Shown piece after piece: positions 10,066-51,348 of a stretch of 53,611 nucleotides of DNA (within the stretch, counting starts at the first letter, position 1; every line of letters starts with the position of its first letter). The position numbers and the translations under genes were made by a program. The DNA lies in the NCBI RefSeq assembly GCF_006912135.1, contig NZ_VIRS01000046.1, forward strand, positions 1-53,611. The letters run 5' to 3'. Below the pieces are notes generated by a model. It was not told where the DNA came from. It saw only the letters and a list, made by a program, of their open reading frames with translations, and did no database searches. Origin of the DNA: Cryptosporangium phraense (lineage in GTDB: Bacteria > Actinomycetota > Actinomycetes > Mycobacteriales > Cryptosporangiaceae).

Positions 10066-11979
10066 ATGTCTGTGTCCACCCGTGTGTCGAGGCTCTGGTG
10101 TCTCAGCCTGCTGTGCCTGTGCTGGGTCGTGCCGGTCGGCGCCGTGCCGGCGGCGGCCACGGACTCCGGCTGCGGCGACGTCACGGTCGTGTTCGCGCGG
10201 GGCTCGGGGCAGCGGCTCGGCCAGCGGGAGAGCGCCGCGTTCCTGACGTCGTTCTCGGCCCGGCTGGGCGTGGACGTCCGGGCGACCGCGTACGAACTCG
10301 GTACGGCGAGCTACGGCGGCGCCCGGTACCCGGCCGTCGGCGTGGGCGTGAACAGCAGCGACGCGTTCGCGAACCTGCTGGACGCGGCCTCGTTCTGGAC
10401 CGGCAACGAGGGCGGGCGGTACCGGGCGTCGGTGGCGTCCGGGGTGGCCGAGCTGCGGGCCTACGTGGGGTCGCGGCTGGCCGCCTGCCCGGGCGAGCGG
10501 GTCGTGTTGGCCGGGTACTCGCAGGGTGCGCAGGTGGTCGGGGACGCGTTGCCGGGGTTGCCGCGGGACCGGGTGGCGTACGTCGGGCTGTTCGGGGACC
10601 CGAAGCTGTCGCTGCCCGAGGGGCGGGGCGTGTTCCCGGCGGCGTGCCGGGGGCGGTCGCTCTCGCCGTGGCGCCGGGGGAGCGTGGGTTGCTACACCGA
10701 CAACGGGGTGCTGGACGCCCGCTCGCCGTACGTCCCCCGGGACGTCGAGGGGCGGGTGGGGTCGTGGTGCGACCGGGACGATCCGGTGTGCAACAGCAAC
10801 CTGGCCGACTTCCGGCACTCGACGCACGGGTCGTACGCGAGGCCGGGGAACGCGGTGGACCAGGCTGCTCGCGAGTCGGCGGTGGCGGTGCGGGCCGCGC
10901 TCGGGAAGCGCGGCCAGAAGATCGACGTGACGGTGAGCGGCCCGTCCCCGGCCCTTTCGGCCCGGCCGGGGACGGCCGTGGTTCCGGTGAGTGCGGCTCG
11001 CCGTGGTGAGGGTCCGACGGCGAGTGCTGCGCCTTCGCCGCCGGGGAGCGGGCCGGCGACCCCTTCGCCGTCGGGGTCGCCGGCGCCGTCCGGATCGCCG
11101 GGTCCCGCGGTCGGCGGGGCGGATTCCGGGGCGTCGGGTGAGCCGGGGGAGGCCGGCGCGCGGCGGGGTCGCGCCGGTCGGCCGGCCGCCGCGCTCGCGA
11201 TCGACGAGTACTGGGCCGCGCCGGGCACGTCGGTGCGGTTCGACGCGTCGGCGTCGGAGCTGCCGGTCGGCGCGTACCGCTGGGACTTCGACGGCGACGG
11301 CGTCGTCGACCGCACGACCACGACCCCGGTCGTCGACCACGTCTACCTCCGGGCGTTCAGCGGCCGGGCCTGGCTCCGCTTGACCGCGGCCGACGGCGCC
11401 GAGCTCATGACGTCGGCACGAATGCACGTCGACCGGGCCGGACTGGCGCCGCGGCTGCCGTCCGCGCCGGACGCGGTGACGGTCCGGGCCGCGCACGGCG
11501 AGCGGGGCGCGGTGGTCCGGTGGGAGGCGCCGGCGGCGCCGCGGGCCGCCGCCTGGCGGATCCACGACGCGGACGGCCGGCTCCTCGCGCACGTGCCGCC
11601 GTCGGTCCGGCAGGTCGACCTGGCCGCGCTCCCGGACCGGACCACGACGCTGACCGTCGAGGCGGTCAACGAGTACGGCAGCAGCGCGCCCTCGCCGGCG
11701 GCGCCCCGCGGCGCGGGGTCCTCCCGCTTCGGGAAGGCGGTCCCGGCGGCCGACGTCGGTGGCGGCCTCCGCGGCTCCGAGGGTGGCGGTCCGGCTGCGG
11801 CCGCGGCCCCGGCCCCGGCCGGCCCGCCTCCGCGGCTCACGACCGGTCTGGTCGCGGTTGCGGTCGCGTTCCTGCTGACGACGACCGGCGCGCTGTGGTT
11901 CTGGCTCCTGCGGACGCGATTCGAGCCGTGCAGCGCAGCCGGGCGGCATCGGCGAAAGCGCTGGCAAAAAAGTCAGTGA
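10066..11979 (+). CDS. surface-anchored cutinase-family hydrolase with PKD and FN3-like domains
   Basis: 637 aa. A signal peptide (residues 1 to about 31, ending PAAA) precedes a cutinase-type alpha/beta hydrolase (about 35-285). The nucleophile sits in GYSQG; candidate triad Asp and His are in CDRDDPVC and the later STHGSY. A Pro/Ser/Gly linker leads to a PKD-like module with the typical WDFDGDG strand, then an FN3-like module. A C-terminal transmembrane helix (about 593-613) ends in a basic tail, so the enzyme is probably held on the outer face of the membrane. Cutinase-family enzymes hydrolyse cutin, lipid or polyester esters; the substrate is unknown. No clear Shine-Dalgarno lies before the ATG. 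Confidence 0.88.
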   Translation: MSVSTRVSRLWCLSLLCLCWVVPVGAVPAAATDSGCGDVTVVFARGSGQRLGQRESAAFLTSFSARLGVDVRATAYELGTASYGGARYPAVGVGVNSSDAFANLLDAASFWTGNEGGRYRASVASGVAELRAYVGSRLAACPGERVVLAGYSQGAQVVGDALPGLPRDRVAYVGLFGDPKLSLPEGRGVFPAACRGRSLSPWRRGSVGCYTDNGVLDARSPYVPRDVEGRVGSWCDRDDPVCNSNLADFRHSTHGSYARPGNAVDQAARESAVAVRAALGKRGQKIDVTVSGPSPALSARPGTAVVPVSAARRGEGPTASAAPSPPGSGPATPSPSGSPAPSGSPGPAVGGADSGASGEPGEAGARRGRAGRPAAALAIDEYWAAPGTSVRFDASASELPVGAYRWDFDGDGVVDRTTTTPVVDHVYLRAFSGRAWLRLTAADGAELMTSARMHVDRAGLAPRLPSAPDAVTVRAAHGERGAVVRWEAPAAPRAAAWRIHDADGRLLAHVPPSVRQVDLAALPDRTTTLTVEAVNEYGSSAPSPAAPRGAGSSRFGKAVPAADVGGGLRGSEGGGPAAAAAPAPAGPPPRLTTGLVAVAVAFLLTTTGALWFWLLRTRFEPCSAAGRHRRKRWQKSQ

Positions 11980-12898: not shown

Positions 12899-14104
12899 AT
12901 GAAGCGCACGATTCTGGTAGCAGCCGTCATGGCGGTGGCCGGCCTGGTCTGGCTCGCTATCGGAGGTGGCACCGCGCAGGCGGCGACGACGGCGCTGGCC
13001 GCCAAGCCGACCGAGACCTCGGCCAAGAAGAAGAAGAAGGTGGCCGCCGCCGCGGTGGCCACCACCGCCACTCCGGCCGCCGCCGCGGTCCCCGCGCTGG
13101 GCGTGCAGATGCACGCGATGTGGGAGATGTACTGGAACGGCCAGACCCCGAACGCGATGTTCGAGAAGCACCTGAACGCGCTGGCCGCCAACAAGGTGCA
13201 GGTCGTCCGCGTCGACATGGGGTGGTCCGCGAGTCAGCCGACGCCGGCCGCGCCGAGCGTCGACTCGTGGCACAACAAGCGCCTGAGCATCGCGATCGAC
13301 CGGATCCGGGCCAAGGGCATGAAGGTCTTCATCACCGCGCACCAGTCGCCGGACTGGTCGCGTCCCGGCACCGGCAGCAACCTGATGCAGTTCCCGACCG
13401 ACCCCAACTCGATCAAGCCGTGGATGACGTTCCTGGCCAAGAACTACGGGTCGCGGATCGCCGGCATCGAGGTCTGGAACGAGCCGAACCTGGTCGAGTT
13501 CACCGGTGTCGCCGACCCGGCGCTGCGGGTCAAGAAGTTCGTCGCGGTGCTGAAGGCGTCGTACGCCGCCATCAAGGCCGGCAACAAGTCGGTTCCGGTG
13601 ATCTTCGGTGGCACCGCGCAGACCGACGACGTCTTCATCAAGCAGGCCTACGCCGACGGCGCCAAGGGCGCGTTCGACATCATGGCCGTGCACCCCTACC
13701 AGGGCAACCAGACCAAGGCTCCGGAGTCGACCGACATCGTCGGCAAGTCGCGGATCACGAACATGCCGGCGATCATCGCGGCGATGAAGGCCAACGGCGA
13801 CCAGGCCAAGCCGATCTGGTGGACCGAGTTCGGGACTTCCGTGCACTCCAACGCCGGTATCACCCAGCCGTGGCTGTTCGGTGTCGCGTCCGACGCGATC
13901 GCCGGTGACTACATGGTCCGCTCGTTCAAGCTGGCCGCCGCCCGTTACCCGCAGGTCAAGGTCGGCACGATCTACACCGCGTACCGTCCGTCGGCCGGGA
14001 TCTCGGCCCACCAGTACGGCTACCGCCTGCTCGACGCCGACGGCACCGTGCACGCGCAGCTGACGATGCTGAAGAAGATGCGGGACACGACGCCGTCGCG
14101 TTGA
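12899..14104 (+). CDS. secreted clan GH-A glycoside hydrolase
   Basis: 401 aa. The signal peptide ends near TAQA (residue 28). A lysine run and an Ala/Thr-rich linker precede a TIM-barrel hydrolase domain from about residue 65. The acid/base Glu is in VWNEPN (about residue 195) and the nucleophile Glu in WWTEFG (about residue 310), the pattern of clan GH-A families (GH5/GH39-like). The substrate cannot be assigned, though beta-linked plant or fungal polysaccharides or glycosides are likely. GAGGGGCGAGG just before the ATG serves as ribosome binding site. The gene ends in a strong terminator and has no linked transporter. Confidence 0.85.
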   Translation: MKRTILVAAVMAVAGLVWLAIGGGTAQAATTALAAKPTETSAKKKKKVAAAAVATTATPAAAAVPALGVQMHAMWEMYWNGQTPNAMFEKHLNALAANKVQVVRVDMGWSASQPTPAAPSVDSWHNKRLSIAIDRIRAKGMKVFITAHQSPDWSRPGTGSNLMQFPTDPNSIKPWMTFLAKNYGSRIAGIEVWNEPNLVEFTGVADPALRVKKFVAVLKASYAAIKAGNKSVPVIFGGTAQTDDVFIKQAYADGAKGAFDIMAVHPYQGNQTKAPESTDIVGKSRITNMPAIIAAMKANGDQAKPIWWTEFGTSVHSNAGITQPWLFGVASDAIAGDYMVRSFKLAAARYPQVKVGTIYTAYRPSAGISAHQYGYRLLDADGTVHAQLTMLKKMRDTTPSR

Positions 14105-39885: not shown

Positions 39886-40827
39886 TCAGCCTCGGCGGTG
39901 GCGGGGTTTGGGGCGGTAGTGGAGGGCCAGCAGGCCGATCGCGCCGAGGACGGCGAGCGTGAGCCCGATGCCCGCGATCAGCGGCCAGCGGCTCCCGTTC
40001 ATCATCCCGGCCGGCTCCTGAACGGCCGCGGCCGACGGCTCGACCTGGTCGGGCGCCGTGCTCGGTGCGGCGTCGTGGTGGTGGTGCGTCGCCGCCGGGG
40101 ACGCGCTCCCGCTGGCCGCGGCCGGGATCCCGCCGCTGCCGCCCTGCGCTGCCGACACCGGCGACGGAGACTTGGTCTTGGCGGGCTCGGTCCCGGCCCC
40201 GAACAGCACGTCCGAGCAGGAGTAGTACGTGTCCGCCGTGCTGGAGTTCTGCCAGATCCCGTAGATGACGTGGTGCCCGGTCAGGCCCTTCGGCATCGTG
40301 CCGGGTAGCACGTACGCGCCGTTCGAGATGCGCGGATCGGTGATCGTCAGGAACGGCTTCGTGTTCAGGTCGGCCCACCGCAGTGCCCGGCCCGGCCGGT
40401 AGCTCGCCTTCGTCACGAAGAGCTTGAACGTCCCCTGGTGCGGGATCGTCGTCGCATACCGGAACGTGAACCTGGCGCCGGGCGTCACCGTCGTCGTCGG
40501 CCAGTCGGTGCGCGGGAGGTCGAGCCCGGCGTACTGGTCCAGCCCGCCGCTGCAGAGCTTTCCGTCCGGGATGACCGACCGGTCGCGTCCGTCGACGCCG
40601 GCGACCCGGAGGTTGTCCCAGGCCTCGGCCGCGCCGGGCTGACTGGCGGCGACCGCCGCCCGGCAGGCCGCGGACCGCGCGGTCGCTCCGCCCTCGGTTC
40701 CGCACGCGGCCGTGCGGGAGATCGGAGAGGTGAGCGTGCCGTGCGCCGACGCTGGAGCGGTCGGCGCGAACAGCGCGACCAGAACCCCGACGAGCGTCCC
40801 GGCGGCCGCTATCCGGAGTGGTTTCAC
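39886..40827 (-). CDS. lytic polysaccharide monooxygenase (AA10) with membrane anchor
   Basis: 313 aa, GTG start. The signal peptide ends ASA, so the mature protein begins at His29 (HGTLTSPISR); with His130 (PHQGTFKLF) it forms the copper histidine brace of AA10 enzymes. GHHVIYGIWQ and DTYYSCSDV are further family motifs. After the catalytic domain (to about residue 210) come a Ser/Ala linker with HHHH and a transmembrane helix (about 281-303) with a basic tail. It is thus tethered to the membrane, whereas most AA10 enzymes are released. It cleaves chitin or cellulose oxidatively. Divergent from a LacI regulator. Confidence 0.92.
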   Translation of the reverse strand: MKPLRIAAAGTLVGVLVALFAPTAPASAHGTLTSPISRTAACGTEGGATARSAACRAAVAASQPGAAEAWDNLRVAGVDGRDRSVIPDGKLCSGGLDQYAGLDLPRTDWPTTTVTPGARFTFRYATTIPHQGTFKLFVTKASYRPGRALRWADLNTKPFLTITDPRISNGAYVLPGTMPKGLTGHHVIYGIWQNSSTADTYYSCSDVLFGAGTEPAKTKSPSPVSAAQGGSGGIPAAASGSASPAATHHHHDAAPSTAPDQVEPSAAAVQEPAGMMNGSRWPLIAGIGLTLAVLGAIGLLALHYRPKPRHRRG

Positions 40828-40902
40828 CGATGAACCCCTTGGTGCGTTTGGGTGGCTGCCTACTGTGGGTACGCAGGCGGGCTACGTCGGGTTCAGCCGG
40901 GC

Positions 40903-40918
40903 GGGAAATCGCTGTTTG
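40903..40918. promoter_or_regulatory. operator-like site near the LPMO promoter
   Basis: GGGAAATCGCTGTTTG is 76 bp before the LPMO start. It matches the second site (40973-40988) at 12 of 16 positions, so it may be a weaker binding site for the divergent LacI protein. Confidence 0.35.
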
Positions 40919-40972
40919 TTGCGGCGGTATCGACAGCACGGAGAGTGGCGCGCGGTACTGTTGCCCTCGCGT

Positions 40973-40988
40973 GGGAAAGCGCTCTCTG
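40973..40988. promoter_or_regulatory. LacI-type operator near the lacI start
   Basis: GGGAAAGCGCTCTCTG is centred on AGCGCT, the CpG-centred imperfect palindrome typical for LacI-family sugar regulators. It lies about 40 bp before the preferred start codon of the LacI gene, so it may mediate autoregulation. Confidence 0.5.
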
Positions 40989-41027
40989 CTATCGCTGGAT
41001 CGCGCGCTCGAGATCGGGGGTCTGGCG

Positions 41028-42065
41028 GTGCCGAACGGGGTGCGATCCGGCTGGGGTCCGCGTCCGACGCTGGATGCGGTCGCCGAGCTCGCGGGCGTCT
41101 CGCGGGCCACGGTGTCGCGGGTGGTGAATCAGTCCTCGAAGGTCGGTCCCGAGGTGAGAGCCCGCGTCGAGGACGCGATCCGGACGCTCGGCTACGTGCC
41201 CAACCCGGTCGCCCGCAGCCTGGTGACCCGCCGTACGGACGCGGTCGCGCTCGTCGTCGGCGAGCCGTCGGACATGATGATGACCGACCCGTTCCTGTCC
41301 CAGCTGATCCTGCAGACCAGCCGCGAGCTCGGCGACGCCGGCCGTCAGGCCGTGCTGCTGCTGACCGGTGGCGACGACGACCACGACCGGATCACCCGCT
41401 ACCTCGCCGGTGGCCACGTCGACGGGGCGATCGTCCTGTCCGTGCACCGCACCGACCCGCTCGGGCAGCAGCTCCGGCACCTGCCGGTCCCGGTCATGTT
41501 CGGCGGCCGCCCCTTCGGGGACGACCTCGGCTTCGCCGGTTCGGTCGACGTCGACCAGCGCGACGGTGCCCGCCGCGCCGTCGAGCACCTGGTCGATCTG
41601 GGCCGACGTCGCATCGCGACGATCACCGGGTCGCTGGACCACCGGGCCGCGATGGAGCGTCTGGACGGCTACCGCAGCGTGCTGGAGGAGACGCTCGGGC
41701 CGGTCGACCACGATCTGATCGCGCACGGTGACTTCACCCGGGGTGGCGGCGAGCGGGCGATGACCGAGCTGCTGGCCCGGGTGCCCGATCTGGACGCCGT
41801 GTTCGCGGCCAGCGACCTGATGGCCGCCGGTGCCCTGGGCGCTCTGCGCCGGGCCGGGCGCCGGGTGCCCGAGGACGTCGCGGTGATCGGGTTCGACGAC
41901 CTGGAGGACGTCGCGGCCTGGACCGAGCCGCCGCTGACGACCGTGCACCAGCCGGTCGGGTCGTTCGGCCGCCGCCTGGTGGAGGCGCTGTTGGAGATGC
42001 TCGCCGGCGGCGAGCCGGTGCGCGAGATCCTGCCGGTGCACCTGGTGGTGCGTGGGACCGCGTAG
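41028..42065 (+). CDS. LacI family transcriptional regulator (sugar-type)
   Basis: 345 aa from the GTG at 41028. The HTH TLDAVAELAGVSRATVSRVVNQ and hinge helix (NPVARSLVTRRT) are followed by a periplasmic-binding-protein-like effector domain ending IGFDDLEDVAAWTEPPLTTVHQP. An in-frame GTG at 40971 is possible, but it would place the operator-like palindrome inside the coding sequence. Divergent from the LPMO gene, so it probably controls polysaccharide use with an oligosaccharide as inducer (inference). Confidence 0.9.
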   Translation: MPNGVRSGWGPRPTLDAVAELAGVSRATVSRVVNQSSKVGPEVRARVEDAIRTLGYVPNPVARSLVTRRTDAVALVVGEPSDMMMTDPFLSQLILQTSRELGDAGRQAVLLLTGGDDDHDRITRYLAGGHVDGAIVLSVHRTDPLGQQLRHLPVPVMFGGRPFGDDLGFAGSVDVDQRDGARRAVEHLVDLGRRRIATITGSLDHRAAMERLDGYRSVLEETLGPVDHDLIAHGDFTRGGGERAMTELLARVPDLDAVFAASDLMAAGALGALRRAGRRVPEDVAVIGFDDLEDVAAWTEPPLTTVHQPVGSFGRRLVEALLEMLAGGEPVREILPVHLVVRGTA

Positions 42066-42968: not shown

Positions 42969-43763
42969 TCAGGCAGCTCGGTGGGAAGGGATTTCGCCGG
43001 CGGTGTCGGGGTGGCCCAGGCCGTAGGCGGCGGCGTCGAGGCCTCGGCCGACCAGGCGCCAGCTGGCCGGGGGGACCGAGAGGCGACGGGTCACGGCGGT
43101 GGCTCGGTGGGTGGACGTGAGGCGCTCGAGCGTCATGGCCGCGGCGCCTCGGCTGGAGTGGACACTGATGTGGTCGACCACGGTGCCGTACTGGTCTAGC
43201 AGGCCGTTGATCGTGAGCACCCAGACAGCGGAACGATATTCGTCCCGAGCTACCAGGTAGCGGGCCTCCAGGTCGCCGCCGGGAGTGCAGCCCAGCCGGT
43301 CGACGGTATCGAGCACGCTGTGCGAGAGGTGGAGCTGGACCAGGCGGCGGTGGGTGTGCAGCTCGGTGGCGCCGACGGTGGCGGCGAGCTCGCCGAGGGG
43401 CGTGCCGCGGCGCCAGGCTTCGATGAGGATCGCGTCGGCGGACGGCGTCCAGTAGGTGCCGTTGCTGTGCGCGCGGCGGGAGGCTCGCCAGTCGTAGGCC
43501 GGGGTGGCCGCGAGCTGTTCGCGCAGCCAGGATTCGGCGGCCGGGCCGCGGAGGGCGAGTGAGGGCGGGGTGAGCAGGCGTAAGGCGCCGCGGACGGCGC
43601 CGGGCGTCCGCTGGAGTTCCTTGGCGATCTGGTCGACCGGGGTGCCGGTGGCCAGCTCGGCGACGACCGCGGCGTACTCCGCGTCGGTCCAGGGTTCGCC
43701 GGAGCGCCGGGCGAGCACGCGGATCGGGGTGGCGACGTCGTCGATGGTGCCGGGAGTCGTCAT
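42969..43763 (-). CDS. unknown protein with two HTH-like segments
   Basis: 264 aa, cytoplasmic. Two regions resemble Myb/SANT-like or HTH repeats: WTDAEYAAVVAELATGTPVDQIAKELQ followed by RTPGAVRGALRLL (about residues 25-65), and YWTPSADAILIEAWRRGT followed by PLGELAATVGA (about 103-135). The C-terminal half (from DRLGCTPGG) is unrecognised. A DNA-binding role is plausible. ATG at 43763 has GGAGG 10 nt upstream. It stands alone beside an insertion-sequence relic. Confidence 0.7.
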   Translation of the reverse strand: MTTPGTIDDVATPIRVLARRSGEPWTDAEYAAVVAELATGTPVDQIAKELQRTPGAVRGALRLLTPPSLALRGPAAESWLREQLAATPAYDWRASRRAHSNGTYWTPSADAILIEAWRRGTPLGELAATVGATELHTHRRLVQLHLSHSVLDTVDRLGCTPGGDLEARYLVARDEYRSAVWVLTINGLLDQYGTVVDHISVHSSRGAAAMTLERLTSTHRATAVTRRLSVPPASWRLVGRGLDAAAYGLGHPDTAGEIPSHRAA

Positions 43764-43847
43764 GGGAGCCGTCCCTCCGTCTGTGTAGGACCAGTGACCG
43801 CCGGATGAGGCCACTGACCTCTACTTTAGAACACAGGTACGACAAAT

Positions 43848-44984
43848 TCAGAGGTGAAGATCGCCGAATCCGGGCTCGATCACGTCGGCGATCAGCGCCG
43901 TTCGGTCGGCCAGCGGCAAGAACGCGGCTTCGGCGGCGTTCCGGGTCACCTCGAGCAGGTCGGCCGCCCCGAAGCCGAACGTCTCGACCGCGCGGCGCAT
44001 GTCCCGGGTCAGGCTCGTCGCGGACATCATCCGGTTGTCCGGGTTCATCGTGACCGTGAAGCCCAGCGCCTTCAGCAACCCGAGCGGATGGTTCGCCCAC
44101 CCGTCCACCACGTTGCCCTTGGAGTTCGACGACAGGCAGACCTCGAGCGGGATCCGCCGGTCGCGCACCCACCTGGCCAGCGGGCCCAGCGTCAGCGAGT
44201 CGATCCGGGAGCCAACGGTGGCCACCGCGCTCCGGATGTCCAGGGCCACCCCGTCCAGAAAGATGTCCTCGACGATGCGGACGCCGTGACCGAGGCGCAG
44301 CGCGTGGCAGTCGTGAACGGTCGAGGCAATACTCGAGACGCCGTCGTGCTCGCCGGTGTGGAACGTGAACGGCACGTTCGCAGCCTCGAGCAGGCGGCAC
44401 GCCTCGACGTGCTCGGACGCCGGGAAGCCCTCCTCCACGCCCGCCACGTCGAAGCCGGCGACCGAATCGCCGTAGTGCTGGATCGTCAGCTTCGCGATCT
44501 CCGTGCTGAGGTCGGACGTCCGCATTCCGCAGAGCAACTGCCGCACCCGGATCGGACGACCGGCCGCCGCCGCGGCCTGCTCGCCGGAGGCCAGCCCGGC
44601 CGCGACCGCCTCGACGGTCTCCGAGAGCGACATCCCCTTCCCGACGTGTTTCTCGGGCGCCCAGCGGGTCTCGCCGTAGACGACTCCGTCGGCGGCCAGA
44701 TCGAGCACGAACTCGTGGGCGACCCGGACGATGCTGTCGGGGTCCTGCATCAGGCGGGTGGTGACGCCGAACTTCTCGTCCCAATTGTCGACGACGGGCT
44801 CGGCGACCGTGCCCTGGAACCATCCGGCCAGGGTGTCCGGGTCGGCGTAGGGCAGCGACTGCCCCTGCGCGTCGGCCAATTCGAGCATCGTCTCCGGCCG
44901 CAGCGAACCGTCGAGATGGTCGTGCAGGGTCACCTTCGGCAGCGCCAGCAGCGGGTCGCCGGCGTCGGCCCAGCGTGGATACAT
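43848..44984 (-). CDS. adenosine deaminase-family protein
   Basis: 378 aa. Metal and substrate motifs are in order: LHDHLDGSLRP (His21, His23), FHTGEHDG (metal His and catalytic Glu region), LGHGVRI, CLSSNSKGN and TMNPDNRMMS (final metal Asp). So a zinc-dependent purine deaminase is expected, converting adenosine to inosine or acting on a related purine. It is the last gene of the ABC importer operon, 12 bp after the second permease, with GAGGAGAG before the ATG, so it should act on the imported compound. Adenine or aminodeoxyfutalosine deaminases belong to the same superfamily and remain alternatives. Confidence 0.92.
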   Translation of the reverse strand: MYPRWADAGDPLLALPKVTLHDHLDGSLRPETMLELADAQGQSLPYADPDTLAGWFQGTVAEPVVDNWDEKFGVTTRLMQDPDSIVRVAHEFVLDLAADGVVYGETRWAPEKHVGKGMSLSETVEAVAAGLASGEQAAAAAGRPIRVRQLLCGMRTSDLSTEIAKLTIQHYGDSVAGFDVAGVEEGFPASEHVEACRLLEAANVPFTFHTGEHDGVSSIASTVHDCHALRLGHGVRIVEDIFLDGVALDIRSAVATVGSRIDSLTLGPLARWVRDRRIPLEVCLSSNSKGNVVDGWANHPLGLLKALGFTVTMNPDNRMMSATSLTRDMRRAVETFGFGAADLLEVTRNAAEAAFLPLADRTALIADVIEPGFGDLHL

Positions 44985-44996
44985 CAGAAACTCTCC

Positions 44997-45815
44997 TCAG
45001 GAACCGAAGGCCCCGGCGTTGGGCCCCCACAGGGCCAGGGCCGGGGCCTCGACGAAATCGACGACGTTGTAAACGACGATCGAGACCGCGGCCACGATCA
45101 CCGCGATCGCCCAGGTCTCGGCGTAGAGCGAGTGCGCGTTCGCGACGCTGATCTCGCCGCCGAGGCCCTTGAGGCTGAACAGCCACTCGTAGAGCATCGC
45201 GGCGACCAGCGAGAGCGGGATCGCGATCTTGACCGACGCGAACAGGTTCGGCAGCGCGCTGGGGAAGGCGACCATTCGCAGCGTCGTCCACCGGTTGCCG
45301 CCGTAGACGCGGACCAGGTCCGCGGCCTGCGGGGACGCCGAGCGCAATCCCAGCGCCAGGTTGATCAGCACCGGGAAGAACACGATGATCGTGCCGATCA
45401 GCGCGACCGTCGGCGTCCCGTTGCCGAAGACGAGGTAGATGATCGGTGCGAAGCCGACCAGTGGAACCGTGCGCATCAGCATCGCCAGCGGGAGGAACGC
45501 CAGCTCGAGCTGCGGCACCAGGAAGAACACCGAGGCCAGCGCGGTCGAGGCCAGGCTCCCGGAGACGAACCCGACCCCGGCGTCGCGGAGCGTCACCCCG
45601 AGGAGCCCGATCAGCTTGGCGCGGTTCTCCGCCGCGCTGGGTCCGAACCGTGCGTCGGTGAACAGGTACTGCCACACCTCGAGCGGGCTCTTCCCGATGT
45701 ACGGGCTCACGTCCAGCACGTGCAGAGCCATCTCCCACAGCAGCAGGATGACCACCGACGAGGCGACCAGGGCGACCAGCGTGCGACCGGCGCGCCGGGC
45801 GAGCAGCCCGGTCAC
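44997..45815 (-). CDS. ABC transporter permease 2 (NitT/TauT type)
   Basis: 272 aa with about six transmembrane helices and the BPD_transp_1 EAA-like loop (AADLVRVYGGNRWTTLRMVAFPSALPNLFASVKIAIP). GTG at 45815 overlaps the stop of permease 1 by 4 bp. It is clearly different from permease 1, so the channel is probably a heterodimer. The N-terminal helix is VALVASSVVILLLWEMAL. Confidence 0.9.
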   Translation of the reverse strand: MTGLLARRAGRTLVALVASSVVILLLWEMALHVLDVSPYIGKSPLEVWQYLFTDARFGPSAAENRAKLIGLLGVTLRDAGVGFVSGSLASTALASVFFLVPQLELAFLPLAMLMRTVPLVGFAPIIYLVFGNGTPTVALIGTIIVFFPVLINLALGLRSASPQAADLVRVYGGNRWTTLRMVAFPSALPNLFASVKIAIPLSLVAAMLYEWLFSLKGLGGEISVANAHSLYAETWAIAVIVAAVSIVVYNVVDFVEAPALALWGPNAGAFGS

Positions 45816-46645
45816 CGGGGGACCCCCCAGGGTGCGACGACCCGCGCCAGCAGGGTCATCGCACCGTAGGCGAGCCCGGCCACCGCGGCGCAGATCATCG
45901 CCAGCGCCCAGAGCGGCCGAGGTCCGTAGTGGATCTGCGCGGCCTGGAGCATGATCCCCAGCCCGCTGTCGACGCCGGACAGGAACAGCTCGCCGAGGAT
46001 CGCGCCGACGAGAGCGGCCGGTGCCGCGATCCGCAGAGCGGACAGCACGCTCGGCAGGGCGTACATCAGCCGGACCTTGCGCAGCTGGGTCCACCGGCCG
46101 CCGCCGTACGCGGCGACCAGGTCCAGCGTCGTCCGGTCCGAGCTCTTCAGGCCGGCCAGAGTGCCCACCACCGTGGTGTAGAAGACGCTCATCCCGGCCA
46201 GCACCACCGACGTCGTGCGGCTGCCGGTGTCGGACATGAGGACGATCAGCGGCGCGATCGCGGTCAGCGGGATGCACGACGCGATCACCGCGAACTGGGT
46301 CGTGGCCTGCTCCAGCACCGGCACCACCAGGACGAGGCCGGAGAGCAGCAGAGCCAGCAGGTTGCCCCAGAGGTAACCCTGCAGCGCCGACCAGCAGGTG
46401 ACGCCGATCGCCTTCCAGTAGGTGGCGTCGCCCAGGTCGCCGACGAACTGGACGAGCGTCGCCCAGGGCGTCGGCACCGAGCCGGTGTCGCGGAACGCGA
46501 ACACCGAGACCAGCCACCAGATCAGCACCAGGAACAGCGTCCCGCCCGCCACCCACGCGGCCCGGCCCGGGCGGGGGAGCGCCGGGCCGGAGCCGGCGTC
46601 GGCCACCGTGCCCAGCGGGACCTCGGTGGTGGGCGGCGCCGTCAT
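45812..46645 (-). CDS. ABC transporter permease 1 (NitT/TauT type)
   Basis: 277 aa with about six helices. The EAA-like loop is [39 protein letters not shown] at 46645 overlaps the stop of the ATPase gene (ATGA), and its own stop overlaps permease 2 (GTGA), so the operon is fully coupled. Most NitT/TauT-type importers use one permease as a homodimer; a second, divergent copy resembles hydroxymethylpyrimidine or nucleobase-related systems (inference). Confidence 0.9.
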
Positions 46646-47412
46646 GCCGGTTCCTCGCGGCCGGCGAAGAGCAGCTCGGAGATCCGGTCGACATAGGCGT
46701 GGAACTCCGGCGTCCGCTGCATCTCCGCGGTGCGGGGCCGCGGCAGGTCGATGTTGACCAGCGCGGCGATCCGGCCCGGCCGCGGCAGCATCACCGCGAC
46801 CACGTCGGACACGAGGACCGCTTCGTCGATACCGTGGGTGACCATCAGCGTGGTGGCCGGGCGTTCGGTCCAGATCCGCAGCAGCTCCAGGTTGAGCCGG
46901 CGCCTGGTCATGTCGTCGAGAGCGCCGAACGGCTCGTCGAGCAGCATCATCGTGGGCCGCACGGCCAGGCAGCGGGCGATCGAAACCCGCTGCCGCATGC
47001 CGCCGGACAATTGGGCGGGTTTGGCCTTCTCGAACCCGCTGAGACCCACGAGCTCGATCAACCCGGCGATCCGGCCGGGCTCGGGCGTGAGGCCGGCGAT
47101 CTCCAGCGGCAACCGGATGTTCTGCTCCACCGTCCGCCACGGCAGCAGCGCGCTGTCCTGGAACGCGATCCCGAGCTCGTGCGCGCCCTGGATCTGCGCG
47201 GGCGAGTGGCCGTTCAGGCTGACCGTGCCGCTGCTCGCCGTCTCCAGTCCGGCCAGGATCCGCAGGATCGTCGACTTTCCGCAGCCGGACGGCCCGATCA
47301 GCGAGAGGAACGAGCTCGCCGGGGTAGTCAGGCTGACGTCGTCCAGCGCGTGCACGACTCGGCGACCGACCCGAAAATCCTTGCTCAGGCCGTCGAGGAC
47401 GATCCCGCTCAT
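46642..47412 (-). CDS. ABC transporter ATP-binding protein (NitT/TauT type)
   Basis: 256 aa. Walker [11 protein letters not shown]-loop [10 protein letters not shown], signature LSGGMRQR, Walker [14 protein letters not shown] and H-loop VTHGIDEA are all intact. LLPWRTV after the Q-loop is typical for the SsuB/TauB group. It powers the importer formed with the two following permeases and the lipoprotein encoded just upstream, whose stop overlaps its ATG (ATGA). Confidence 0.93.
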
Positions 47413-48536
47413 GACGACGCCGACGGCGACGGAGTGGGGTCGGTGGGCGCGGTGATCGATGCTTTCAGATCCGGGTTCTCCTGGTAGACCTCCGTGATCA
47501 GAGAAAGATCGAACAGGTCGTCGGCCTTGACCGGGTAGCCCATCGTGTTGAGCGACTTGATGTTGTCCGCGATCAGCGCGTCGGTCATCGTGAACAGCCC
47601 GTTGGCGTTGGTGTCGTCGCTGACGATCAGCCGGTCGGCGATCTCCACCGCGCCGCCGTACTCGTCGGCGTAGGTGAGCTTCTGGTCCTTGCCGTACTTC
47701 TCGACGGTGAGCGTCGCCGCGGTGGCCGGGTCCTTGATCGCGTGCGTCCAGCCCTTGATCTCGGCGACCAGGAACGCCTTGAGCATGTCCCGCTTCTTCG
47801 TGATCGTGTCCTGTAGCACGGTGAACGTCTCGGCGACGAACGGCAGCCCGTTGTCGGCGAACGACATGATCACCGGCTTGTACCCGGCCAGCGAGAGTTG
47901 GAGGTCGTCGGTGATGTAGGTCATGAAACCGTCGACCTTGCCGGCCTTGAGAATCGAATCGTCGTACTGCACGCCGACGATTTCCACCTGCGACTTGTCG
48001 ATGCCGTTGGCCGCGAGCAGCCCCTCGAACAGCGTCTGATTGCCGCCGGCCTGCACGCCGATCCGCTTGCCGATCAGGTCCTTGGCGGTCCGGATCGGGG
48101 TCATCGTCTCGATCGAGCCGATCGCGAACGGGTTCTTCTGATAGGTGGCGCCGATGATCTTGAGCGGCGCGTTCGAGTTGACCAGGGTCGCCGCGGTGAT
48201 CGGCGGGGACGAGAGACCGATCGTCACCTTGCCCGCCAGCACCAGTGATTCGGCCGTGGTCTGCGTGCCGCCGGCCACCAGCATGACGTCCTTGAACCCG
48301 GCCGCGGTGTAGTAGCCCTTCTCGGTGGCCAGGTACTCACCGACGAACTCGTGGTTCTTGATCCACGACAGGTTCAGCGAGATCGTCCCGTAGTCACCCT
48401 TCGTACCCGACGACGAGCCGGATGCGTCGGACGAATCGTCGCCGCAGGCCGCCAGCACGCCGGCGGCACCGAACGCGAGACCGCCCAGGGCGCCGGCCCG
48501 GAGGATGGATCGCCGGGAGAACCGGGCGCTGTTCAT
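47409..48536 (-). CDS. ABC transporter substrate-binding lipoprotein (NMT1/THI5-like)
   Basis: 375 aa. The N-terminus [15 protein letters not shown] looks like a twin-arginine signal, followed by a lipobox LAAC, so a Tat-exported lipoprotein is likely. The mature part ([44 protein letters not shown]) is the NMT1/THI5-like fold used for pyrimidine precursors, sulfonates and similar ligands. The genes around it suggest a purine nucleoside or base. AAGGAG 5 nt before the ATG is an excellent ribosome binding site. First gene of the importer operon, behind an 18-bp operator. Confidence 0.92.
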
Positions 48537-48653
48537 GGTTTCTCCTTGTACGCGTGCGCGAAGTCGTCCGATCCGGACTCGGACAGGCCGACAGAGGGGC
48601 TCCGAGCCGGGGAAACACGACAGTGTGCGGGTCGGCGGCGGTCGATCGCCGGT

Positions 48654-48672
48654 CACTTCACGCTAGGAAGTG
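48654..48672. promoter_or_regulatory. dyad around the -10 region of the importer promoter
   Basis: CACTTC (48654-48659) and GAAGTG (48667-48672) flank ACGCTAG. Reading on the minus strand the centre holds TAGCGT, the proposed -10 hexamer. A second protein or the same LacI might bind here. Confidence 0.35.
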
Positions 48673-48688
48673 CAAAACGTTTTGGGCA
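48671..48688. promoter_or_regulatory. 18-bp LacI operator, importer promoter
   Basis: TGCAAAACGTTTTGGGCA, with the perfect 12-bp palindrome CAAAACGTTTTG centred on CG. The same 18 bp, inverted, stands at 51301-51318 before the LacI gene. On the minus strand it lies 5 bp upstream of TAGCGT, which would be the -10 region, so bound repressor would cover the -35 region. ATG of the lipoprotein gene is 135 bp downstream. Confidence 0.8.
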
Positions 48689-48727
48689 GCACTCGGCTGA
48701 ATAAATAACCCACCCGAAGCAACGAAA

Positions 48728-49429
48728 TCAGAGCGACAGCGTCTTCACAGCGAGATCGAGCATCCGTTCGTACCGGCGCTCGCGCTCGTCCGACGACATG
48801 GCCGCGCGCGTCTTCACGTGATCGCTGACCGTGAGGATCGCCAGCGCCTCGGCCCCCTCGGCCATCGCGGTCGCGTACAGACCCGCGGCCTCCATTTCGA
48901 TCGCCAGCGTGCCGAGTTCCCCGAGTGCGTCCACGACGCCGGGCCGGGTCAGATAGAAGAAATCGGTCGAGAGCACCGGTCCGACCCGTACGTCGGCCCC
49001 GGAGGCGGTGAGCGCCGAGCGGAGCAGGTGCGGGGAGGGCGCCAGCGAGAGCGAGACCCCGGGGACCCGCACCGTTCCGGTCGTCGACTCGGTGTGTGCG
49101 GCCGACGCGACGACGACGTCGCCGACGGCGAGGTCCTCGGGGATCCCGCCGCAGGTGCCGACCCGGATGATCCGGCGGACGCCGTAGAAGCGGTACAGCT
49201 CGGTGGCGTAGATGCTGATCGACGGGTTGCCCATGCCGGAGGCCATCACCGAGAGCGGGCGTCCGCCGATCGTGCCGGTGAACCCGGAGATCCCGCGGAC
49301 GTCGGTGACGAGAGTGGCGTCGGTCAGCAGGTCGGCGGCGATTCGCGCGGCCCGTTTCGGGTCGCCCGGCATCAGCATGTCCGGCGCGAACTCGCCCGAT
49401 CCGGCCGAGATGTGGGGGGTCGGCGTCAT
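48728..49429 (-). CDS. deoD: purine-nucleoside phosphorylase, DeoD type
   Basis: 233 aa, standard for the hexameric DeoD type. MLMPGDPKRAARIA carries the phosphate-binding Gly-Asp-Pro, followed by MGNPSISIYATEL, RVGTCGGI, the EMEAAGLY nucleoside-binding motif and the catalytic Asp in LTVSDH. It phosphorolyses purine (deoxy)ribonucleosides to base and (deoxy)ribose-1-phosphate. ATG at 49429 lies 2 nt after the stop of the amidotransferase-like gene, so both belong to the LacI-headed operon. Confidence 0.93.
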   Translation of the reverse strand: MTPTPHISAGSGEFAPDMLMPGDPKRAARIAADLLTDATLVTDVRGISGFTGTIGGRPLSVMASGMGNPSISIYATELYRFYGVRRIIRVGTCGGIPEDLAVGDVVVASAAHTESTTGTVRVPGVSLSLAPSPHLLRSALTASGADVRVGPVLSTDFFYLTRPGVVDALGELGTLAIEMEAAGLYATAMAEGAEALAILTVSDHVKTRAAMSSDERERRYERMLDLAVKTLSL

Positions 49430-49431
49430 GG

Positions 49432-50166
49432 TCAGCTCTCCTTGTGCAGCCAGCGGACCACGCCGTCCCAGAGCTGACCGTATCCTGGCCAGCTCACGAA
49501 CTCGGGCGGAGCCCAGTGCGGGGCGATGTCGGACGTGAAGGCGGCGGTGCGTCCGGAGCCGTACTCGCCGGTGATCAACAGGGGGTGGCCCGCGCACTCG
49601 ACCAGCACGTCGGCGCGCGCGGTGACCTGATTCAGCCCGAGCAGTGCGGGCCAGACGCCGGCGACGGCGGACACCGCTGGATGGCCGGGCGCGCGGACCT
49701 CCGGCACCGCCCCAGCGGGCAGCTCGACCCGGTCGTCGCGGTCGAGCACCTCGACCGGCAGGGCCGCGGCCAGCGGCGTCCGGCCCCATCGGGCCTTCGC
49801 GTCGATGCCGCTGAAGCTGAGATAGCCGCCGATCGTCAGCAGTGCCCCGCCGTTCTCGACGTAGGCCCGGATGGTCTCGGTGCGATCCGGCGACGGCTGC
49901 GACCGGGTGAACGTCCGGCTGGCGAGCTGGAACGTGTTGGCGCCGACGTCACTGATCGCGACCACGTCATACGAAGCCAGCTCGTCCGGGAACTCCCGGT
50001 CGACGAGATGCGACGGGAGGTAGCTGGTCTCGTGGCCGTACTCGCGGAGGGCGTCGAGGAAACTGGCGCCTCCCTCGGTGTATTCGGCCGAGGCGAAGGC
50101 GTCGAAGCCCTTCTGGTGAGTGGTGTAAGTGAACCACGATTCGCCCACGAGGAGCACATGGGCCAT
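49432..50166 (-). CDS. glutamine amidotransferase-like protein
   Basis: 244 aa. Starts MAHVLLVGESWFTYTTHQKGFDAF and contains GGALLTIGGYLSFSG, matching a class I glutamine amidotransferase-like (PF07090) family. The nucleophile position in GGYLSF is Tyr rather than Cys, so glutaminase activity is doubtful; ThuA-like proteins share this fold. The substrate is unknown, but the position between the LacI gene and deoD links it to nucleoside breakdown. GGAGG before the ATG is an excellent ribosome binding site. Confidence 0.85.
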   Translation of the reverse strand: MAHVLLVGESWFTYTTHQKGFDAFASAEYTEGGASFLDALREYGHETSYLPSHLVDREFPDELASYDVVAISDVGANTFQLASRTFTRSQPSPDRTETIRAYVENGGALLTIGGYLSFSGIDAKARWGRTPLAAALPVEVLDRDDRVELPAGAVPEVRAPGHPAVSAVAGVWPALLGLNQVTARADVLVECAGHPLLITGEYGSGRTAAFTSDIAPHWAPPEFVSWPGYGQLWDGVVRWLHKES

Positions 50167-50229
50167 GAGGACCTCCTATTGGAGCGCACGGATGAGGGAC
50201 GGCCGACGCTGGCCGGGACGACGAGAAGC

Positions 50230-51285
50230 TCAGGCGGGAGCGGGCCCGGTACTGGCTCGGACCTCGAGGTGGACCGGCAGGAGGTGCCGCGATGTCGGCG
50301 GCTCCTCCCCGTTGGCCACGTACTGCAGCAGTTGCGCGGTCGCGGTCCGGCCGATGTCGTAGGCGGGCTGGTGCACGGTGGTCAGTGGTGGGGCGCACAA
50401 CGAGGCGACCCGGATGTCGTCGAAGCCGACCAGTGAGATGTCGCCGGGCACGGCCAAGCCTCGCTCGTGCAGGACGGCCAGCGCACCGAGGGCCATCTGA
50501 TCGTTCGCGGCGAACACTGCGGTCCGGTCGAATCCGTCCGAGTCCAGGCACTGGAGCATCAGTTCCGCGCCGGACTGCTCCAGCCAGGTGCCTTCCAGCT
50601 GGATGACGTCGCCTTCGAACGCCTCTCGGAAGCCCCGGGCGCGCTGCGCGGCACTCGGCAGCAGCGCCGGGCCGGTCAGCACCGCCGCACGGCGATGCCC
50701 GAGTTGCCGCAGATGCTCACCGGCCAGGCGTCCGCCCTGGTAGTGGTCGGCCATCGCGGAGAGCGACTGGGGAAGTCCGGTGACGTCCTCGTCGACGACC
50801 GCGATCGGGAAGCGGCCTAGCAGCGATTCCAGCCGGGCCTCGGTCGGAGGAGTGCCCGCGGCGTAGACCATCCCGTCGATGAACCGGCCGCGGATCAGGT
50901 CGAGATAGTGATCTTCGCGCGCGGGGTCGAACTCGGTGTTGCAGAGGATCACGCTGTAGCCGATGTGGTGGGCCGCGTCTTCGACGCCCTTGGCCAGCTC
51001 GGCGTAGAAACCATTGGTGATGTCGGGGATCAGTAGGCCGATGACCGAGGTGGAACCGGCCTGAAGGCTGCGCGCCAGCGAGGCCGGTACGTAACCCATC
51101 CGGTTCACCGCCTGCCGAACCCTCGCGGCGGTGGCGGCATTGACCGGTCGCCGGCCCGACAAGACGTGCGAAACCGTGGTGGGACTGACGCCGGCCGCGT
51201 CGGCGACGTCGTGAATCGAGACCGGCCGCCGGGTCCGGCGCGGCCGGCGCTGCGGCACCTCCGGATCGGGCTGTTCGTCGGTCAC
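50230..51285 (-). CDS. LacI family regulator of the purine regulon (predicted)
   Basis: 351 aa from the GTG at 51285. HTH SIHDVADAAGVSPTTVSHVLSGRRPV, hinge helix PASLARSLQAG, then a ribose-binding-like effector domain (IGLLIPDITNGFYAELAKG to VGFDDIRVASLCAPPLTTVHQP). TAGCGT lies 8 bp before the GTG, so the transcript is probably nearly leaderless. The 18-bp operator sits immediately upstream of that element. The inducer is probably a nucleoside, base or ribose derivative (inference). It heads the operon with the amidotransferase-like and phosphorylase genes. Confidence 0.92.
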   Translation of the reverse strand: MTDEQPDPEVPQRRPRRTRRPVSIHDVADAAGVSPTTVSHVLSGRRPVNAATAARVRQAVNRMGYVPASLARSLQAGSTSVIGLLIPDITNGFYAELAKGVEDAAHHIGYSVILCNTEFDPAREDHYLDLIRGRFIDGMVYAAGTPPTEARLESLLGRFPIAVVDEDVTGLPQSLSAMADHYQGGRLAGEHLRQLGHRRAAVLTGPALLPSAAQRARGFREAFEGDVIQLEGTWLEQSGAELMLQCLDSDGFDRTAVFAANDQMALGALAVLHERGLAVPGDISLVGFDDIRVASLCAPPLTTVHQPAYDIGRTATAQLLQYVANGEEPPTSRHLLPVHLEVRASTGPAPA

Positions 51286-51300
51286 GCGTCGGACGCTAGG

Positions 51301-51318
51301 TGCCCAAAACGTTTTGCA
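51301..51318. promoter_or_regulatory. 18-bp LacI operator, regulator promoter
   Basis: TGCCCAAAACGTTTTGCA is the exact reverse complement of the site at 48671-48688. It is 2 bp upstream of the minus-strand TAGCGT -10-like hexamer of the LacI gene. Confidence 0.8.
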
Positions 51319-51348
51319 CAACGGTGACCGGCACGCCTCCGTACCCGT

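Follow-up and report, generated by a model that had tools for sequence, protein, structure and literature searches.

Several described systems resemble, each in part, the locus that we analyse here. NupABC is a nucleoside importer of the ATP-binding cassette (ABC) class, and operons of the RbsR, PurR and CytR kind join a LacI-family repressor and a palindromic operator to catabolic genes for ribose or nucleosides. In this line, passages of published work link binding-protein-dependent ABC import to nucleosides for BmpA (PMC13325309) and PnrA (PMC11620282), and a passage on SAR11 describes purine-use clusters with purine ABC transporter genes (PMC11698098). Our subject is an eight-gene block of the actinomycete Cryptosporangium phraense, on the minus strand at positions 43848-51285 of contig C46 (NZ_VIRS01000046.1), which in its whole length of 53,611 bases is the window of this analysis and belongs to an assembly of 8.46 Mb in 87 contigs. 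The block consists of lacI, a PF07090 gene, deoD, the gene of an NMT1-type lipoprotein, an ABC ATPase gene, two permease genes and the gene of an adenosine deaminase (ADA). An earlier note on this DNA had described two units with these eight genes, and all of them are indeed in place. Altogether, the block is probably an accessory LacI-repressed locus for the import of purine nucleosides and their cleavage to hypoxanthine and ribose-1-phosphate. With BmpA, PnrA and NupABC it would share a binding-protein-dependent ABC import tied to nucleosides, but its lipoprotein is of the NMT1/THI5 type and comes with a BPD_transp_1 permease pair; with the SAR11 clusters, likened here by that description only, in which the binding protein is assigned to no family, it has ABC transporter genes among genes for purine use; and from the RbsR, PurR and CytR operons it differs in being a local regulon of two sites whose importer is of the NMT1 type.

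The proposed route relies on two enzymes. The DeoD-type purine nucleoside phosphorylase (48728-49429, minus strand) reaches 244.0 bits with NF004489 (cut-off 230) and passes TIGR00107 barely (232.3 bits, cut-off 232.25), and it retains the stretches SDH, EMEAAG, PGDP and RVG, which align with solved DeoD and which we take to contain the active-site residues. The adenosine deaminase (43848-44984, minus strand) scores 435.8 bits with NF006847 (cut-off 412) and carries HxH, HTGE, GHG and the D of NPDN, presumably the metal-site motifs. Nucleosides are the substrates of the enzymes in the block, in which no signal peptide is visible by eye, so adenosine or inosine would be the simplest substrate to assume. 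The lipoprotein would capture a purine nucleoside outside the cell, most likely adenosine and/or inosine, and the ATPase with its two permeases would carry it inward; ADA would then turn adenosine into inosine, and DeoD, using phosphate, would split the nucleoside into hypoxanthine and ribose-1-phosphate, while the PF07090 protein may contribute a step in the breakdown of nucleosides or ribose. LacI would occupy the identical operators at the two promoters until a signal molecule (a nucleoside, ribose or a purine) releases it. The co-controlled route of purine nucleoside uptake and breakdown that had been put forward for this DNA thus finds support in enzymes above curated cut-offs, in shared predicted operators and in the purine context of relatives of the importer; what had been called salvage may be better named catabolism.

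Control of the block can be read from a 19-nt sequence present in two copies of opposite orientation, whose arms are 100% complementary in a repeat search (pair I18), with one copy at each promoter. Operator 1 (51301-51319, minus strand) lies upstream of lacI and has its core, CAAAACGTTTTG, at 51305-51316, and operator 2 (48670-48688, minus strand), the same 19 nt inverted, precedes the transport unit with its core at 48673-48684. This 12-bp palindromic core has only these 2 sites in the 8.46-Mb assembly, where the reversed control pattern has 0 and where about 0.03 sites would be expected by chance (arithmetic from base composition). On this evidence the two predicted operators mark two transcription units, and co-control is supported because they are identical, are placed alike at both units and have a core found nowhere else in the assembly. 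A lack of co-regulation between the units, which the earlier note had named as a reason to drop its proposal, is accordingly not what the sequence predicts.

At both promoters the sequence CCTAGCGT follows 4-5 nt past the core (51293-51300 for lacI and 48660-48667 for the transport unit) and is likely the -10 region. The preferred start of lacI (50230-51285, minus strand) is the GTG at the 51285 end, 7 nt beyond CCTAGCGT, a layout as in leaderless transcripts, and lacI is likely leaderless; a TTG at 51321 precedes operator 1 and would put the operator inside the gene. The regulator matches Pfam LacI and Peripla_BP_3, that is, a LacI helix-turn-helix and a sugar-binding-like domain, and has CcpA, RbsR and PurR as top PDB relatives, with matches to the models of the RbsR, PurR and CytR kind below cut-off; predicted palindromic operators stand at its own and at its target promoter, as in LacI-type repressors. 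From the habits of the LacI family we infer repression and an inducer. The genes are tightly packed, with junctions that overlap or measure 2-12 bases, except that lacI and the PF07090 gene are 63 bases apart and that the lipoprotein gene is preceded by the operator-bearing gap. Ribosome-binding sites are visible upstream of four genes, namely those of the PF07090 protein, DeoD, the lipoprotein and ADA. A search of the operator-bearing gap for terminator-like sites gave none, and transcription of the first unit may therefore also run on into the second. The lipoprotein gene is best started at the ATG at 48536, which has an AAGGAG, rather than at a GTG at 48656. The latter is in frame with the lipoprotein open reading frame, lies just past the likely -10 and would add 40 residues ahead of the signal peptide. 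Riboswitch control was considered and rejected, as no Rfam family, the thiamin pyrophosphate (TPP) riboswitch included, reaches its gathering score in the window and the leader has one match at chance level.

The NMT1/THI5-type lipoprotein of the importer (47409-48536, minus strand) has PF09084 as sole Pfam match at E <= 0.001 (127.6 bits, cut-off 20.5) and shows, by eye, a twin-arginine signal and a lipobox (LAAC); the ATPase (46642-47412) matches PF00005, with SaoA- and NtrCD-type matches under their own cut-offs, and the two permeases (45812-46642 and 44997-45812) match PF00528, all on the minus strand. With NMT1 as its only Pfam family the lipoprotein is not a Bmp-type binding protein, which agrees with the earlier note that the importer is not of the BmpA/NupABC type, and by its sequence families the importer stands outside the known nucleoside importers. 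The name given to it, NitT/TauT, has to be narrowed. A model of the mature lipoprotein (mean predicted local distance difference test score 93.4) has as its top Foldseek matches 4nmy, a protein with bound thiamin, and 3ix1, the pyrimidine binder ThiY (TM-score normalised by query length 0.74-0.78, identity 20-23%), with TauA (0.62-0.63) and SsuA proteins behind them, so that NitT/TauT holds as a label of the broad family and not of the closest branch. The NitT/TauT, SsuABC and TauABC systems have that broad ABC family in common with the block, including weak permease and ATPase matches, but the equivalog cut-offs are missed and the fold is more distant; the listed matches to TauC, SsuC, NtrB and SsuA-family NCBIfam models are far under cut-off. 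The modelled fold is one of heteroaromatic binders, which can be counted in favour of a nucleoside ligand.

The same fold matches could also point to an importer of thiamin or of its pyrimidine, as the lipoprotein has fold and sequence family in common with ThiY and with the C. difficile thiamin-binding protein. However, identity to these proteins is no higher than the 20-23% given above, no thi gene occurs in the block as it would in a ThiXYZ context, the neighbours are purine enzymes, the window lacks a TPP riboswitch at gathering score, with a chance-level match in its leader, and purine genes lie beside the relatives, all of which makes a thiamin importer hardly credible. Fold, missing riboswitch and purine-gene neighbours of relatives likewise do not favour an unrelated ligand, such as a sulfonate or a thiamin precursor, of the kind that the earlier note would have taken as contrary to its proposal. 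In the literature searched, by titles and the beginnings of abstracts, the importer family was not recognised, which is no proof of its absence from print, and the passages of PMC11698098, PMC9309504 and PMC4222082 do not describe it.

The ligand class is suggested above all by the genes beside relatives of the lipoprotein. A first sample joined the best 80 of 85 loci from a genome scan to a same-genome paralogue (L014) and four further loci (L127-L130), 85 loci in all, with relatives 39-54% identical and stretches of 5-21 kb searched with 15 marker queries; loci with urease, amidohydrolase or M20 matches alone were not counted as strongly marked. A marker match was found in 67 of the 85 and a strong purine marker in 63 (57 of 79 when the six loci that supplied queries are set aside), and when grouped by genus-like label, the marked loci fall into 16 of 27 groups, with Nocardia reaching 32 of 32. 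Loci of PF07090 relatives, used as control, gave purine markers in 0 of 21. In a Nocardia locus (L037), Pfam and NCBIfam models recognised XdhC, OHCU decarboxylase, urate oxidase, 8-oxoguanine deaminase and a molybdenum hydroxylase as neighbours; a Pseudofrankia locus (L048) has a urease alpha subunit and an adenine-deaminase-domain protein under the NCBIfam adenine deaminase cut-offs, and another relative (L129) lies near an allantoinase. Moreover, adenosine deaminase occurs near relatives in Rathayibacter (L092; above TIGR01430 only) and Saccharopolyspora (L043).

As the marker queries were drawn from the loci themselves, a second sample was taken. A different NMT1 protein encoded in this genome, meant as control, had no relatives outside its own genome at E <= 1e-50, and a family-wide sample was used instead: PF09084 proteins in 60 genomes of the class, among which species of the first set may recur. 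From the first 32 places listed, 20 were kept, after setting aside five in the own genome, two loci used before, one partial match and four from genomes already represented. Four of the 20 lipoproteins belong to the family, being 43-47% identical to that of the window, and all four have a purine or nucleoside gene nearby: three (L205, L206, L210) have purine markers, and in the fourth (L202, a 3-kb contig) the lipoprotein gene is directly behind a nucleoside hydrolase gene of the same strand (PF01156, 201.6 bits). The other 16 loci gave nothing in 14 cases, one 30% match to the 8-oxoguanine-deaminase query and one 31% match to the allantoinase query. This gene context ties the family to purines and several of its members to nucleosides.

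The context also gives its strength to the main rival, in which the importer would take up a purine base (hypoxanthine, adenine, guanine, xanthine or urate) and ADA and DeoD would process nucleosides coming from inside the cell or through another carrier. Beside most marked relatives there are, in fact, xanthine-dehydrogenase-type genes, 8-oxoguanine deaminase, uricase, OHCU decarboxylase, adenine-deaminase-like proteins or allantoinase. But the block's own enzymes have nucleosides as substrates, some relatives have adenosine deaminase or nucleoside hydrolase near them, and a loop motif seems to follow this division: TNE in 28 of 34 relatives (35-protein alignment), it is TDD in the block and TAG or TSG in the ADA-neighboured members from Rathayibacter and Saccharopolyspora. 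This loop aligns with INHE of ThiY, a region that we take to be ligand-binding. There are exceptions on both sides, since L098 lost TNE with no ADA marker and L076, L088 and L089 retain it next to an ADA-like match of 33-38%. On balance, base import appears unlikely, though a good deal less so than a thiamin importer.

Several observations weigh against nucleoside import as the preferred explanation. No strong purine marker was found in 22 of the 85 loci, among them the same-genome paralogue, all those of Actinoplanes (0/3), Actinomadura (0/3) and Williamsia (0/2), and Nocardia accounts for 32 of the 63 marked loci. What lies beside most marked relatives is base breakdown and not nucleoside enzymes, and no DeoD or PF07090 match occurs in the loci of lipoprotein relatives. 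The lipoprotein is on a long branch with no firm place in the tree. The ADA scores 204.5 with TIGR01430, just below the cut-off of 216.55. As for control, a promoter scan gave no sigma-70 consensus site, and a 16-mer search with 3 mismatches gave one extra site elsewhere, with equally many matches for the control pattern, so that a wider regulon is not claimed. As a separate observation, the paralogous lipoprotein (L014, G000:C19:131729-132799), 48% identical and part of a same-family importer in the same genome, has no purine marker in 19.5 kb.

Comparison with genus mates indicates that the block is accessory, either acquired in this genome or lost from those of the mates. In all three mates, counterparts of coxE (79-82% identical) and coxG (92-93% over the first 147-149 residues) are followed by the counterpart of the window gene at 42969-43814 (81-86%), with no block between them. 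The space at its site is about 0.7 kb in one mate (L118), perhaps with a short gene, and less than 0.25 kb in the others, and the conserved sequence ahead of the far gene starts a few bases from the ADA stop codon. In the 20 kb taken from each mate the block proteins find no match except LacI- and ATPase-family ones at 32-34%, and elsewhere in these genomes the lipoprotein finds, over most of its length, nothing better than a match of 32%. Missing at the same site in the mates, the block looks like a self-contained module. CoxE and CoxG were considered as members of it and rejected, because in all three mates they adjoin the far-side gene without the block.

An accessory, self-regulated block with a divergent binding protein could also serve a modified or rare nucleoside, such as a nucleoside antibiotic or a modified RNA nucleoside, as a set for detoxification or for a niche nutrient, and here it matters that its ADA comes on top of a shared copy: another ADA of the own genome is 47% identical to that of the window and has counterparts 46-47% identical to the window's in all three mates, and there are weaker ADA-family matches besides. 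DeoD, for its part, has no second match in the own assembly at E <= 0.001. But the ADA passes the ordinary adenosine deaminase equivalog, DeoD passes ordinary DeoD models and there is no pointer to any specific modified nucleoside, so that a special substrate is very improbable and import of ordinary purine nucleosides is preferred.

The PF07090 protein (49432-50166, minus strand; 300.5 bits, cut-off 27), of the family labelled GATase1_like, had been called amidotransferase-like, a label that is sound for the fold and fails for the activity, as the nucleophile cysteine of class I glutamine amidotransferases is missing. An alignment of 22 members has no common cysteine, and two have none at all; at the presumed nucleophile elbow, located by eye, Tyr stands in 21 members and Trp in one. 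Invariant residues include D144, D145, R146, H162, D213 and H217. For its PDB relatives, 2gk3 and 3soz, the depositors give no function, and the literature found, among the matches listed and in the portions of text that they cover, makes no mention of PF07090, STM1381 or GATase1-like. In the 21 PF07090 loci outside the window, nucleoside hydrolase occurs in 11 and PfkB kinase in 12 (9/19 and 11/20 without query-source loci); the same markers in the 85 lipoprotein loci number 0 and 3. Three of the 11 hydrolase-bearing loci (L156, L158, L159) have near-identical hydrolases, two PF07090 loci (L150, L161) contain another NMT1-type protein, and DeoD is in none of the 21. Such neighbours suggest that the protein takes part in the use of nucleosides or ribose. 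Some relatives of the protein (L149, L153, L154, L121) have BtpA-family, phosphotriesterase-family and ABC transporter genes close by, and this combination recurs.

The complete gene order, whose conservation the earlier note had offered as a check, was absent from the 80 named loci and from the unnamed loci fetched. Around the block, the CoxG and CoxE genes occupy the contig end (51404-53604), and the cluster of the mates also has molybdenum hydroxylase subunits and XdhC. A second LacI-family gene lies at 40818-42065 on the plus strand, and all three mates have a LacI-family gene near the same site, with a start that is very similar by eye in two of them. Farther away, the window carries an AcrB-type (resistance-nodulation-division) transporter gene in this high-GC actinomycete contig (26089-29196) and neighbouring cutinase-like and cellulase-like (glycoside hydrolase family 5) genes (10066-11979 and 12899-14104).

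Beyond what had been noted before, this analysis adds the operator pair, the accessory nature of the block, the family-wide purine link with its second sample, and corrected names for the importer and for PF07090. In a more general view, which we hold with evenly divided confidence, actinomycetes would use a distinct NMT1/THI5-type branch as purine importers, with nucleoside-binding members in this block, in the ADA loci of Rathayibacter and Saccharopolyspora and on the L202 contig, and the cysteine-less PF07090 proteins would supply an enzyme so far missing from the catabolism of nucleosides or ribose. This offers a testable ligand class, purines, for actinomycete importers whose top family-model matches are nitrate, sulfonate and taurine systems, and it places the orphan family PF07090 in a pathway that can be tested. 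Should both hold, they would correct the annotation of genomes and the prediction of nitrogen sources for soil actinomycetes.

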